Below are positions 30,287 through 39,125 of a DNA stretch of 64,000 nucleotides, piece by piece. The notes beneath the pieces were generated by a model that ran no database searches, had not been told where the DNA came from, and saw nothing but the letters and a program-made list of their open reading frames with translations. The stretch comes from Candidatus Bathyarchaeota archaeon. Its GTDB lineage: Archaea; Thermoproteota; Bathyarchaeia; Bathyarchaeales; Bathycorpusculaceae. Position 1 is the first letter of the stretch. Each line of letters starts with the position of its first letter. A program made the position numbers and the translations under genes. The stretch covers positions 1 to 64,000 of the forward strand of contig JANXDU010000003.1 in the NCBI GenBank assembly GCA_025059195.1, written 5' to 3'.

Positions 30287-30895
30287 CTAGCAACCACGGC
30301 CTTTATCTGACTCGAAATGTTTTTTGAATATTTTGCAAATGTCCTCAGGCTTTTCTATTATGGAAACCCCTTTCATTTTAGCTAGCTTCTTGACGTGTTC
30401 CACGTCTTCTTTTCTAACCATCAGTTTCAGCTCCTTACCGCTTGGAAGCTTGGTATAAACAACTCCTTCTTTGTAGTCTGAAGGCATTATGTATACGGGA
30501 ACAAAAGCTTTCAAAGCCATGATTGCTGAGTTACTAATTAAACTATCCGCTATTCCCATTGAAATTTTCGCTACAGTGTTAGATGTTGCCGGAGCGATTA
30601 ACAGAAACTCAAATTTTCCAGTTTGCAACTGACCAGCCAAGAATGGCGTATTAGAATCAACCTCAACGAAAACTCTGTTAAAAGTATCCTTCAAGGTATT
30701 GCCTAATCTATACCATTTTATAACTTGCTCTCCAGCCTTGGAAAGGTAGACGTTAATATCCACTAAATTTTGATATTGCACTTTTATCTTCTTCATAACT
30801 TCAATGGTTTCGGTTAGTCTGTCCCCGCTTCCAGTGATTCCCCAAGCCACCTTCTTTTTCTTCACTGCGCTTTCCATATTTGCACAAGCCATCAT
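30287..30895 (-). CDS. afpA: Archaeoflavoprotein AfpA
   Basis: This 202-residue protein belongs to the flavoprotein (HFCD-like) fold. It has an N-terminal KKVAWGITGSGDRLTETIEV and LLIAPATSNTVAKISMGIAD, the FMN-binding loop of the family. Archaeoglobus AfpA accepts electrons from ferredoxin and reduces an adjacent iron-sulfur flavoprotein. The same pair is present here, with the partner ending where this gene starts (four-base overlap), so the electron chain is probably conserved. Confidence 0.88.
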   Translation of the reverse strand: MMACANMESAVKKKKVAWGITGSGDRLTETIEVMKKIKVQYQNLVDINVYLSKAGEQVIKWYRLGNTLKDTFNRVFVEVDSNTPFLAGQLQTGKFEFLLIAPATSNTVAKISMGIADSLISNSAIMALKAFVPVYIMPSDYKEGVVYTKLPSGKELKLMVRKEDVEHVKKLAKMKGVSIIEKPEDICKIFKKHFESDKGRGC

Positions 30896-31485
30896 AATTT
30901 AATTTTTTCAAAATGTTTTAGGGCTTCTGCAAATTTTTTCACGGATTTCTTAAGGCTTTTAAATCCTTCCTCGTCGTTTTTAACAGCTTCTAAAGAGTCT
31001 TTTGACCAGAAAGTTGCACCTAAATTCGCTCCAAAGGCGCCCCCACTCACGGGGATAATTCCATTAAGAATATAAAAAGTCAAGATCTGCTGTATAGCCA
31101 GCTCCTGTCCTCCTATCCTATCGCCCCCCACGGCAATAGCCATGCCCACTTTATACCTAAAAACGTTAGGGTCAGCTGCAGTAAGAGCCCTGCACCTATC
31201 CATAACAGCTTTTAACTGCGCACTAACCCCACCGTTGTAGACAGGTGTAGCGATAATGACGCCATTGGCAGCCTTGAGAAGATCATAAAGCGTTGCCATG
31301 TCATCAGCAACCCTGCACTTCTTATGTTTTAAACAATAGTCACAGTGTGTACAAAAGCCAATGTTTTTTCCCCTAACGGTGAAAAATTCCGTCTGAAAAC
31401 CCATTTCATTTAACAAATTTAGCGCTTTCATGGTAACGTACTCTGTGGCTTTTTTCCGCGGGCTTCCGCATAAACCTACTATCAT
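30892..31485 (-). CDS. isf: Iron-sulfur flavoprotein (Isf family)
   Basis: This 197-residue FMN protein of the NADPH-dependent reductase fold carries a compact cluster motif. LCGSPRKKATEYVTMKAL binds the flavin phosphate, GFCTHCDYCLKHKKC supplies the closely spaced Cys of a [4Fe-4S] cluster, and IATPVYNGGVSAQLKAVMDR contacts the flavin. Family members reduce peroxide or oxygen in methane-producing archaea. AGGTGATG precedes the ATG and GTTTTTATAC about 35 bases upstream is a TATA candidate. It forms an operon with AfpA. Confidence 0.92.
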   Translation of the reverse strand: MIVGLCGSPRKKATEYVTMKALNLLNEMGFQTEFFTVRGKNIGFCTHCDYCLKHKKCRVADDMATLYDLLKAANGVIIATPVYNGGVSAQLKAVMDRCRALTAADPNVFRYKVGMAIAVGGDRIGGQELAIQQILTFYILNGIIPVSGGAFGANLGATFWSKDSLEAVKNDEEGFKSLKKSVKKFAEALKHFEKIKL

Positions 31486-35428: not shown

Positions 35429-36211
35429 CTAAGGTTCTTTTAGGGCTTTTCTTGCGAAGGTAATGTATCCTGTGTGCGCCGTCATGAGTGTTTGTGGCCT
35501 TGTTTTACCTCGTTCTGTTTGTATCCCCCGCACTAGGCATTCGAAGGTTTCTATGTCTACAAAGCTGTGCTCCTTCAATTCTTCCACGGTTTTAACTGTT
35601 TGGTCTATGGTTGGACTGAAGGAAATAAAAGTTCCACAGGGCTTCAGCGCCTTGTGAGCATGGGAAACCACAAGCCATGGAGTCGCCATATCCAGTATAA
35701 CAGCGTCCACGTCCTCCTCGTCTATGCTCACCGTGATGTCCTTGTTTTTAAGCTCAACAAAGTCCCTCAGGCCAGCTCGTTTAATGTTTTTCTCTGCAGT
35801 TTCAAGAAATTCGCTTCTAACTTCGTAGCTGTAGACGCGGCCATTTGGCTTAACAAAGTGGGCGAGGGCTGTGGTTAATGCACCTGTGCCGGTTCCAGCC
35901 TCCACAACGCGGCTGCCCGGGCCTATTCCGCTGAAGACTACGATGAGGGCGATGTCCTTTGGATACATTATCTGGGTTCGTCTGACACTCTTCATTATGT
36001 AATCGCGGAGTAGCGGCTTAAGGATTGTGAACTGGACGCCGAGGCTGGTGCCCACAGTTGAGCCATAGTTTTTGCCTATCAAGTCGTCCAGTTTTATGAA
36101 GCCCTTATGAGTGTGAAGTGTCTTTCCGGCCTCAACTTTGACGAGGTATGTTCGCCTCTGGTCTAGGTAAAGCAGAACGTATTCGCCTTCAACTACTTTT
36201 TGGCTTTGCAA
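35429..36211 (-). CDS. trmI: tRNA (adenine-N1)-methyltransferase TrmI
   Basis: This 260-residue Rossmann-fold enzyme methylates A57/A58 in the T loop of tRNA and stabilises it at high temperature. The N-terminal beta domain (THKGFIKLDDLIGKNYGSTV) precedes the SAM-binding GSRVVEAGTGTGALTTALAH. QIMYPKDIALIVVFSGIGPG and DAVILDMATPW match the family. It is 17 bases downstream of the DapA-Fae fusion on the same strand, probably co-transcribed. Confidence 0.93.
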   Translation of the reverse strand: MQSQKVVEGEYVLLYLDQRRTYLVKVEAGKTLHTHKGFIKLDDLIGKNYGSTVGTSLGVQFTILKPLLRDYIMKSVRRTQIMYPKDIALIVVFSGIGPGSRVVEAGTGTGALTTALAHFVKPNGRVYSYEVRSEFLETAEKNIKRAGLRDFVELKNKDITVSIDEEDVDAVILDMATPWLVVSHAHKALKPCGTFISFSPTIDQTVKTVEELKEHSFVDIETFECLVRGIQTERGKTRPQTLMTAHTGYITFARKALKEP

Positions 36212-36228: not shown

Positions 36229-37707
36229 TTAGGGCGAGTATTTGAAGGGGTGTTTAGCGCGTTCCTTGTTTTCTATAAGCTCCTCTATGGAAGGCCTCCC
36301 CTCCACGGCTTTTCTTATGGCGTGGCGCATAGCCTTATAGTTGTTTATGTAGACACGTTGGCGGTCCACAGCCGATGGATGAACAAAAACGTTCGCTATT
36401 ATAACTAAGGCCTCAGCAGCCTCTTTTGGTATAGTGCCATCCGCAACGCTGTCCACCACGGCTTTGGCTACCGCTGTTTGGGCTGGGCCGTACACCATGC
36501 CGGCCTGCCGCATGTTGGTTACCGTAACCGTTGGAACTATAAGCGTTAGAGGCTTAACGGTTAGGTTTGGCTCTAGTATGGCCAATAGTGGCTCGTGACC
36601 CGGTGCCGGGGTAGCCTTCGCCTTTACAAAAGCGGCGCCTACGGGGCCATCTTTTGTGCCGATCACGAGGTCTATGTGGGCTACTTCGGCACCCGTTCCA
36701 GCTAATGCTTCGCCTACACGAAGGTTGAAGTCCCTTATGATTTCGGGGGTTATGTCAATCGCCATAAACCGTTGCTCCATAGGTTTTTCTGCGATCTGGA
36801 AGGTTATGGGCTTCGGTTCTATTTTGCCAAGTTTCTCCAATTCGAGGCGAAGTTCCTCCCTGTTCTCGTAGGTTAGTTCACCGCCTACACTTAAGGGTAG
36901 CCTAACGGGGCCGACTTTTATTTTCATCATGTTTAGGGCTGCTTTTGCGCCTACTGGGCCGCTTCCAGCGATTATGCGGGCTATCTTTTGAATCTTGTAT
37001 TGAAGTTCCCGGGCTTTTTGAAGCTCGCCATTTTTAATATGGTTATACACCTGAACCCAGACGTCTGGCATGAAGTTGGCGCTGGCGAGAATTGCGCCGG
37101 AACACCCCGCTGCTAAAGCTGCCACCACAACTTCGTCATGTCCGCATAATACATTGATTTTGTCCCTGACCTTTTCCAGCACTGCCAAAATGTAGCTGAG
37201 TTGTCCGCTGCTGTCTTTTAAGCCCACAATGTTTGGTATTTGCGCTAAGTCCTCCACCATCTGCCACGTCAATTGTACCCCCGTACATTGGGGAATATTA
37301 TATAAGATTATTGGCATTTCCACCTTGCTTGCAATTGTGTCATAATGCTCATAAACTCCACGATCCGCGGGCTTCAGATAGAAAGGCGTGACAATTAGGG
37401 CGGCGTCGGCGCCCACGTCCTTTGCATACTTCGCCATGTCAAGGGCTTGATCTGTGCCGCTGGCTCCAGCCCCAGCAACTACCGGCACGCGTCCGTTAAC
37501 CTCGTCCACCACGATTTTTATGACTTGTTTCCGCTCTTCCACTGTGAGGTTTACAAATTCGCCTGTCGTGCCACATGGAACAACCCCATGAACCCCCAGC
37601 TCTATGCAGCGGTTCACCAAAAAACGCAGTTGAACCTCGTCGATGGCTTTTCCATCATCCGTGAAGGGTGTAACAAGCGCAGGCATGATTCCTTCCGGTT
37701 TAAACAA
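36229..37707 (-). CDS. Fusion of a DapA/NAL-family aldolase with formaldehyde-activating enzyme (Fae)
   Basis: From the TTG at 37707 (SD GAGGTGA four bases before; the open frame extends to 37743) there are 492 residues. Residues about 1-300 are a DapA-type TIM barrel with GTTGE (46-50), Tyr110, Tyr136 (LYNIP) and Schiff-base Lys164 (VGLKDSSG). The Arg of PSRTG that binds aspartate semialdehyde in true dihydrodipicolinate synthase is Cys141 here (PQCTG), so another aldehyde is likely. Residues about 315-488 are a complete Fae domain with catalytic His344 (GAEVAHIDLVIG), GHEPLLAILEPNL and YGPAQTAVAKAV. Fae condenses formaldehyde with tetrahydromethanopterin. The fusion suggests that the aldolase makes or consumes formaldehyde. 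Confidence 0.92.
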   Translation of the reverse strand: MFKPEGIMPALVTPFTDDGKAIDEVQLRFLVNRCIELGVHGVVPCGTTGEFVNLTVEERKQVIKIVVDEVNGRVPVVAGAGASGTDQALDMAKYAKDVGADAALIVTPFYLKPADRGVYEHYDTIASKVEMPIILYNIPQCTGVQLTWQMVEDLAQIPNIVGLKDSSGQLSYILAVLEKVRDKINVLCGHDEVVVAALAAGCSGAILASANFMPDVWVQVYNHIKNGELQKARELQYKIQKIARIIAGSGPVGAKAALNMMKIKVGPVRLPLSVGGELTYENREELRLELEKLGKIEPKPITFQIAEKPMEQRFMAIDITPEIIRDFNLRVGEALAGTGAEVAHIDLVIGTKDGPVGAAFVKAKATPAPGHEPLLAILEPNLTVKPLTLIVPTVTVTNMRQAGMVYGPAQTAVAKAVVDSVADGTIPKEAAEALVIIANVFVHPSAVDRQRVYINNYKAMRHAIRKAVEGRPSIEELIENKERAKHPFKYSP

Positions 37708-37793
37708 GTTTTCACCTCTTAGAATACCATAAACGTTAAACACATTTAAGCCCTTTTAAAGTTAGTAGGTTTGTTCTATTGGGGGATAAGCCT

Positions 37794-39125
37794 TTGAAAA
37801 CTATTGAGGAGAAACTTTTAATCAGCGAGAAGATGCTGGAAGAGGTTAACGCTTTCCTGCTGCGGAAAAACAACCCCCTCATAAACGGGGTTCTAGAAAT
37901 CCTTGACGAGCATGGTGGAGCAGAGGAGATTAACCGCAAAGCCCGAGAAAACAGCAGACTAGAAAACCTTATGCAGCGCCTCGAAAAAATGAAGTCTCCA
38001 TTTCTCAAGGACCTTGAGTGGCTTATTAAGCAACGTGACAAGGAAGCCTTCATAAGCATACCCGAATACCGCAGAAAAATCTTGGGGAAAAAGGCAGATT
38101 CCATAAAATTCAATGAGGCCTGTGCGGTTACACTTGAAATAAGTGCTTGCAACTTTTTCCCGTGGCTAGTTGAGGAGGCGAAAAGGGCGATTAAACACCG
38201 GGACCTCATGCCAGCCCGCTACATACGCGTAAGGCCTATGAAAGAACAGGTGGAAGACGGTGACATTTTAGCTTTCGCGGCCGCCATGCAAGTGATTGGG
38301 GCTTCTTATGTGCAGACACTGGACACAAGGGGCACTATGCCTGGATCCGACGGCAAACCTATAAACATTCACTTGGGCGGGCCAGAAACAATCACGGGTT
38401 ATTTCGGCGGCGTTGGCGTTCCAAATGAGTACGCCTTAAAATGGGTTGAAGAATACCTGTACTACTATACGGAGTATGGCGTAAAACAGATTTTAAACAC
38501 GAATATTGGGACGGTTTTGCTGGGCTTTCTACTGCACAAGCTTGGAATAGACATAGAGTTCAAAATTTCAGTTTTCCTCGGAGCTGACAACCCCTACTCG
38601 ATTTTATGGATTCTCATGATGGCGAAGCTTTTCAGCCGAGGGGACGGCACGACGCCGCTGGCTGGTTTTAACTTATCCAACTCCGTGAACAACCACACCA
38701 TCGAGTTGGCAGCTTACACCCGCAAAGCCTTAGGCTTTGAAGACGCCGTGCGCATAGAACACCACATAACCGAAGCCTTCAAAAGCATCGTCCGCCAGCC
38801 CTACGACCGCCTAAACGAGCTATTGGAACTGGCAAGCCACGTGAAGAACATAAGCGCTAAACACGAGGGCGCGCCGCCAGAAGTGGAGAAAACCCGTGAA
38901 CACCCTTCAGACATACTGGATTACTTTCTACCGAAAAAGGAAATAATCGAGAAAGGGTTAATGCCAAAACTGCTTGCAAACTACTTGGATAAGCACGACG
39001 CCGTGAACAGAACGGCGAAAGCCCTAACAGAAAAAGGCTTAGCCTTCGTAGCAGCCCAAAACCTCCATAAAAAGGATAGGGAAAAGAGCTACAGGTATTC
39101 CTTAGGCTTCCGGAACACCAGATAG
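37794..39125 (+). CDS. Large conserved-looking protein of unknown function
   Basis: This 443-residue soluble protein starts at TTG 37794 behind GGGGGAT (TTG at 37779 is an alternative). A helical N-terminus is followed by an apparent barrel-like region with NIHLGGPETITGYFGGVG, LNTNIGTVLLGFLLHKLG, VFLGADNPYSILWILMMAK and GFNLSNSVNNHTIELAA, which look like substrate or cofactor loops. I do not recognise the family. It is transcribed divergently from the DapA-Fae fusion, with only about 85 bases between the starts, so a shared promoter region and a common pathway are possible. It overlaps the next minus-strand gene by 37 bases at its end. Confidence 0.8.
   Translation: MKTIEEKLLISEKMLEEVNAFLLRKNNPLINGVLEILDEHGGAEEINRKARENSRLENLMQRLEKMKSPFLKDLEWLIKQRDKEAFISIPEYRRKILGKKADSIKFNEACAVTLEISACNFFPWLVEEAKRAIKHRDLMPARYIRVRPMKEQVEDGDILAFAAAMQVIGASYVQTLDTRGTMPGSDGKPINIHLGGPETITGYFGGVGVPNEYALKWVEEYLYYYTEYGVKQILNTNIGTVLLGFLLHKLGIDIEFKISVFLGADNPYSILWILMMAKLFSRGDGTTPLAGFNLSNSVNNHTIELAAYTRKALGFEDAVRIEHHITEAFKSIVRQPYDRLNELLELASHVKNISAKHEGAPPEVEKTREHPSDILDYFLPKKEIIEKGLMPKLLANYLDKHDAVNRTAKALTEKGLAFVAAQNLHKKDREKSYRYSLGFRNTR

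Follow-up and report, generated by a model that had tools for sequence, protein, structure and literature searches.

What might an archaeon do with a single polypeptide that joins an aldolase of the DapA superfamily to a formaldehyde-activating enzyme (Fae)? Such a protein is encoded in the window analyzed here, a stretch of 64,000 nucleotides in contig C19 of a Candidatus Bathyarchaeota genome (1.37 Mb, 36 contigs, 92% complete). Bathyarchaeia are widespread, uncultured, and abundant archaea of sediments, and their carbon diet is debated. Each of the two domains is already known; what appears to be new is their combination, Fae with a DapA-like aldolase, for which we predict a joint activity from sequence. 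The fusion probably lets Bathyarchaeia swap carbon between a C4 keto acid and the C1 pathway with no toxic formaldehyde released. If this is true, C1 units would have a new way to enter or leave central metabolism, through a pyruvate aldolase tied to tetrahydromethanopterin (H4MPT).

The fusion gene and its distribution

ORF analysis of the window places the gene at 36229-37707 on the minus strand, as a single frame of 492 amino acids with a TTG start at 37707; the plus-strand frame over the same positions is full of stops. The mechanical ORF, 36229-37743 (minus strand), begins at a GTG 36 bases further upstream and would encode 504 amino acids. The TTG agrees with the N-terminus that is conserved in an alignment of orthologues (MFKPEGI..PALVTPF). 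Pfam matches to DHDPS (E=5.8e-80) and Fae (E=3.4e-62) are both far over cut-off. The class I pyruvate-aldolase barrel of the DapA/NAL superfamily (PF00701) spans 36841-37698 and the complete Fae domain (PF08714, TIGR03126) 36244-36717, and the gap between the two Pfam matches, at 36718-36840, corresponds to an interdomain linker of approximately 40 amino acids. The residues singled out in the initial annotation all lie where it had put them when numbered from 37707, namely the Schiff-base Lys164 (37216-37218), Tyr136 (37300-37302), the GTTGE motif, and the conserved Fae His344 (36676-36678), all on the minus strand. Its description of the Fae domain as complete also holds, with the PF08714 match covering model positions 1-158/159.

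Scanning 84,980 species genomes recovered relatives at 43 loci, nearly all titled Bathyarchaeota. Identity is 54-93%, and the similarity mostly extends from end to end. A single unbroken frame is the rule; departures from it are due to contig ends, N-runs or masked runs, and, in a few MAGs, a broken frame. The frame was said to be uninterrupted, and no stop separates the domains in the window copy or in most of the 43 loci. Because so many loci carry the fusion, most as one intact frame, it is confirmed not to be an assembly artifact. Among close genomes, 16 of 41 have it. In our tree, the fused DapA domains, 46 distinct ones in all, group as a single clade (support 100/100, one label change). 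The fusion thus has a single origin, and the tree showed no descendant in which the two domains had separated again. When the window fusion was compared with three relatives, dN was 0.03-0.08 and dS approximately 0.9 or more for both domains, and dN/dS was about 0.03-0.07 in each half; purifying selection on the two domains is therefore strong. Chance falls far short of explaining such an observation. No plasmid record among those searched spans both domains.

The aldolase pocket

The barrel has the hallmarks of class I pyruvate aldolases, with the Schiff-base lysine, the catalytic tyrosine, and a GxxGE motif. In E. coli DapA numbering, the equivalents of Lys161, Tyr133, Tyr107, and Thr45 are kept in all 46 fusions; at the Thr44 place, 45 have Thr and the remaining one has Ser. 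In dihydrodipicolinate synthase (DHDPS), Arg138 is the defining residue, which holds the carboxylate of aspartate semialdehyde (ASA). It is Arg in the DapA of both E. coli and M. jannaschii and Leu in YagE and NanA; the fusions have Cys (39), Val (3), Leu (3), or Ala (1), with Cys141 (37285-37287, minus strand) at this place in the window. An active site unlike that of DHDPS is thus seen in every fusion. Since Arg138 is lost throughout, the domain, which we take from its residues to be pyruvate-type, is not expected to bind ASA as DHDPS normally does.

The fusion shares with DHDPS its fold, the Lys161, Tyr133, Tyr107, and Thr44 equivalents, and a score above the TIGR00674 cut-off, but it differs in having neither Arg138 nor a lysine context. 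With YagE, a 2-keto-3-deoxy sugar acid aldolase, and NanA, the N-acetylneuraminate lyase, it has in common the Lys/Tyr pair and a non-Arg residue at 138, although it is joined to Fae and its grouping with these enzymes in the tree is weak. The residues examined do not fix the carbon length of the substrate, and the pocket could accept a longer aldehyde. A standalone DapA paralogue in the same genome (contig C10) has GSNGE and Phe at the Arg138 place, and inspection of its neighborhood revealed no lysine operon. Phage-like structural genes surround this paralogue (L105, G000:C10:14000-30000), judged by eye to be a possible provirus.

The Fae domain and H4MPT metabolism

The Fae half scores well over its cut-offs with both PF08714 (209.6 bits against 27) and TIGR03126 (218.6 against 118). 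It aligns end to end with the Fae of M. extorquens (1y5y, E=3e-37), the catalytic His included. Thirty-six core positions, again including this His, are common to 1y5y, the fusion, and the Fae-Hps proteins of the same genomes, the 1y5y row being reliable only within its alignment to the fusion Fae; some 19 positions distinguish the fusion-type Fae from the Fae-Hps type.

The function of Fae and its fusion to hexulose-phosphate synthase (HPS) are on record (PMC5241800). Our fusion may be an analogue in which Fae is likewise tied to a (beta/alpha)8 aldolase, the aldehyde is likewise formaldehyde, and carbon metabolism is likewise linked to methylene-H4MPT. However, Fae is C-terminal in our fusion, and the barrel is a Schiff-base pyruvate aldolase of the DHDPS family, not HPS. 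The NF009833 model for Fae-Hps gives 179.9 bits against a cut-off of 274, with the Fae part alone aligned. The initial annotation had kept the two proteins apart, and a true Fae-Hps, with an extra N-terminal region, is indeed encoded separately in the window's genome (L001). That genome also encodes Mch, an H4MPT-specific enzyme, which answers the check for tetrahydromethanopterin enzymes that the same annotation had suggested; Mch is found in 13 of 14 complete fusion genomes. Consequently, two Fae fusions co-exist in this genome, and H4MPT metabolism is present. In the open-licence literature, which makes for weak evidence, no paper linking Fae to dihydrodipicolinate synthase turned up, consistent with the description of the fusion as undescribed, and papers on Bathyarchaeia in that literature mention fae without an aldolase-Fae fusion.

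Proposed function and alternatives

What was observed, namely the fusion, its conservation, the intact catalytic residues, the pocket unlike that of DHDPS, the H4MPT gene, and the linkage to two families of barrel proteins (N and P, below), points with somewhat better than even confidence to a bifunctional aldolase-Fae as the best explanation. Such an enzyme would carry out a reversible C1 exchange in which 4-hydroxy-2-oxobutanoate (HOB) is interconverted with pyruvate and formaldehyde, and Fae swaps the formaldehyde with methylene-H4MPT. This bears out in part the initial annotation, which had proposed an aldolase that splits a 2-keto-hydroxy acid into pyruvate and formaldehyde or runs in reverse. 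From these observations we infer the substrate, formaldehyde as the aldehyde, the channeling, and the direction. The simplest reading of a conserved fusion of single origin is a shared intermediate, and formaldehyde is the only intermediate that Fae handles; with formaldehyde as its product or substrate, a pyruvate aldolase converts HOB to pyruvate or pyruvate to HOB. Lys164 of the N-terminal barrel would form a Schiff base with a 2-oxo acid, most likely HOB, the C4 “2-keto-3-deoxy” acid, which the barrel would cleave to pyruvate and formaldehyde or form in reverse. The tethered Fae would condense the formaldehyde with H4MPT to methylene-H4MPT, or release it, and the tethering would leave little free formaldehyde to accumulate. 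Coupling the two steps would give HOB + H4MPT = pyruvate + methylene-H4MPT + water, an analogue of Fae-Hps with pyruvate and HOB in place of ribulose-5-phosphate and hexulose-6-phosphate.

There is precedent for this chemistry. For example, seven pyruvate-aldolase genes, including yagE, were deleted in E. coli to stop the conversion of HOB to pyruvate and formaldehyde (PMC13279387). In an engineered homoserine cycle, the E. coli aldolase RhmA makes HOB from pyruvate and formaldehyde (PMC8879981). Separately, sugar-acid dehydratases can produce HOB from threonate (PMC10079672). The reaction we propose for the fusion is the one catalyzed in the synthetic cycle by RhmA and other promiscuous pyruvate aldolases. 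There, however, unfused enzymes catalyze it as a side activity, with free formaldehyde, whereas in the fusion it would be an evolved function coupled to H4MPT. We give about an even chance to the broader claim that in the fusion we have the first enzyme from nature to have evolved for a direct exchange of carbon between HOB and the H4MPT pool of C1 units and that, with N or P, it forms an undescribed pathway for C1 entry or exit in Bathyarchaeia. If true, a pathway hitherto confined to synthetic biology would have an equivalent in nature, and the fusion would offer synthetic methylotrophy, which now relies on promiscuous E. coli aldolases to condense formaldehyde, a naturally evolved enzyme to start from.

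The dapA equivalog TIGR00674 is still the best single NCBIfam match (258.4 bits, cut-off 206.15), which counts against the HOB reading, and the closest PDB chains are DHDPSs. Both would be expected of a true dihydrodipicolinate synthase for lysine or DAP fused to Fae by chance. We nevertheless reject this identity as very improbable, given the loss of Arg138 in all 46 fusions. Moreover, the archaeal ASA dehydrogenase is absent in most fusion genomes (G002 has it), which would leave those genomes no ASA by that route, although Asd of other types may supply it, and no DAP genes were recognized beside the fusion in the loci compared for synteny. A longer 2-keto-3-deoxy sugar acid, with glycolaldehyde or glyceraldehyde as the product and Fae fused for detoxification or another reason, is a doubtful though better alternative. 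DapA-type KDG aldolases are broad, YagE has Leu at the Arg138 place, and homologues of P and N sit in sugar- and organic-acid operons. Against this stands the retention of the single-origin fusion in every lineage in which it was found, which argues for a shared intermediate, and Fae handles formaldehyde only. The absence of PanB from the window's genome and many relatives would fit an aldolase that takes over from PanB by adding formaldehyde to 2-ketoisovalerate on a route to pantoate. We rejected this replacement, which is hardly credible, because the distribution of PanB does not track the absence of the fusion: PanB is present in seven fusion genomes (G014, G017, G024, G025, G030, G034, and G037), and many genomes without the fusion also lack it. 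In addition, pyruvate is the substrate of DapA-family enzymes.

Neighboring genes

Gene N (37779-39125, plus strand) is divergent to the fusion and encodes an unannotated protein for which sequence searches of Pfam, NCBIfam, and the PDB gave no match, permissive E values included. AlphaFold2, run with 37 orthologues, predicts a (beta/alpha)8 barrel preceded by a helical domain at the N-terminus (pLDDT 83.6, pTM 0.84). Foldseek with models from two AlphaFold2 runs returned generic TIM-barrels alone, such as class II aldolases and MTHFR, at low TM, and naming N from structure was therefore rejected. About 40 loci have N next to the fusion or close by, some of them being the same place reached via two collections. 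The linkage also holds in lineages with changes to TrmI, RNase J, and further neighbors; in the distant locus L037, N comes after the fusion in the same direction. N is present in 13 of 14 complete fusion genomes and in none of 14 without the fusion, genomes that are related, so that p-values for such comparisons are descriptive only. Across the phylum it was found in only 18 of 398 genomes, and searches of viral contigs and phages found none.

A bacterial homologue of N (54% over 423 amino acids) lies on a Polaromonas plasmid (L210), where it adjoins dapA, TRAP transporter genes, Ldh_2, an FAD oxidase, Fe-ADH, and an aldehyde dehydrogenase. Because the DapA near this homologue keeps Arg138, N alone does not imply formaldehyde chemistry, and the aldehyde at the Polaromonas locus may differ from that of the fusion.

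Where N is missing, a second unannotated family, P, of about 310 amino acids, immediately precedes the fusion and is read in the same direction (G027, G034, L022, L032). Its genes include L025:7015-7953, L022:290-1228, L032:6991-7923, and L199:9712-10644, and archaeal members match no Pfam model. A profile comparison of N and P gave a probability of 71% (E=4e-5 over 220 columns) from shallow alignments, and both have FK[IV]S and GFN/TFN motifs. On these similarities, N and P may be interchangeable partners from one superfamily. Bacterial homologues of P, at 38-44%, sit with mandelate-racemase-family and sugar ABC transporter genes in Thermomicrobium and Streptomyces; the annotated one from Thermomicrobium is labeled “U32 family peptidase” in RefSeq. 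Together with the fusion, N and P would gain a first functional context, in C1 and keto-acid metabolism.

Other neighbors vary. A two-gene galactarate/altronate-type dehydratase (GD_AH and SAF), possibly a producer of HOB, is divergent to the fusion at L033:6448-7928, and a gene resembling hydroxyaspartate/threonine ammonia-lyase is directly downstream in the same direction at L026:6981-7967 and L029:7211-8167. A tungsten aldehyde:ferredoxin oxidoreductase (AOR) lies beside the fusion and N in L018, L019, and L021. The same type of AOR recurs in G021 and G023 (L149:2359-6613, L150:1053-5245), two incomplete genomes in which the fusion was not found; there, with a homoserine dehydrogenase (HSD) and N, it stands by TrmI precisely where the fusion would be. 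In the window, TrmI itself, a tRNA (m1A) methyltransferase assigned from PF08704 and synteny, follows the fusion in the same orientation (35429-36211, minus strand). Since several lineages that keep the fusion and N lack it at the locus, TrmI is probably a syntenic marker and not part of the pathway.

Direction of the exchange

If the HOB exchange is catabolic, the neighboring barrel enzyme, N or P, would make HOB from a hydroxy or sugar acid, and the split of HOB would feed pyruvate and methylene-H4MPT into the methyl branch of the archaeal Wood-Ljungdahl pathway. We lean modestly toward this role over an anabolic one because of the contexts of the N and P homologues, the dehydratase at L033, and the other keto-acid and aldehyde neighbors. 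The lack of chorismate synthase, HSD, ThrB, and ThrC in fusion genomes was also counted in its support.

Run the other way, pyruvate and formaldehyde derived from methylene-H4MPT would give HOB and, by transamination, homoserine, replacing the route through aspartate kinase, ASA dehydrogenase, and HSD as a natural analogue of the engineered cycle. We consider this unlikely. HSD (PF00742) is absent in 13 of the 14 complete fusion genomes and present in 13 of the 14 without the fusion. In G021 and G023, the slot of the fusion between TrmI and N is filled by HSD (PRK06270, 434 bits, over cut-off), and this slot, with its AOR, fits the anabolic reading equally well. The engineered homoserine cycle (PMC8879981) also offers a precedent. 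However, ThrB, classical ThrC, and mostly the archaeal Asd are missing from fusion genomes as well; for Asd, the asd_EA type alone was covered, and it is absent in most but present in G002. Above all, chorismate synthase, our control family, shows the same split (1 of 14 against 12 of 14), so the HSD pattern is unspecific, and HSD absence was rejected as proof of a homoserine bypass. The covariation of HSD with chorismate synthase is as strong as that of the fusion with N. What is seen looks like a general loss of amino-acid biosynthesis, and the fusion genomes are probably general amino-acid auxotrophs. The window's genome is exceptional in having the fusion plus a full leu-thrB-thrC-hom-lysC-aro cluster on contig C9 (L151:1-18001), which also speaks against an anabolic replacement. 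This cluster is missing from nearly all other fusion genomes; lateral gain, retention, and mis-binning are all possible.

Two minor observations concern the surroundings of the fusion. An MTA-phosphorylase-like gene is directly downstream of distant fusions (L035:9578-10441, L036:7911-8822). Elsewhere in the window, an archaeoflavoprotein AfpA gene and an adjacent gene of the NADPH-dependent FMN reductase family (30287-31485, minus strand) likely form a redox pair.
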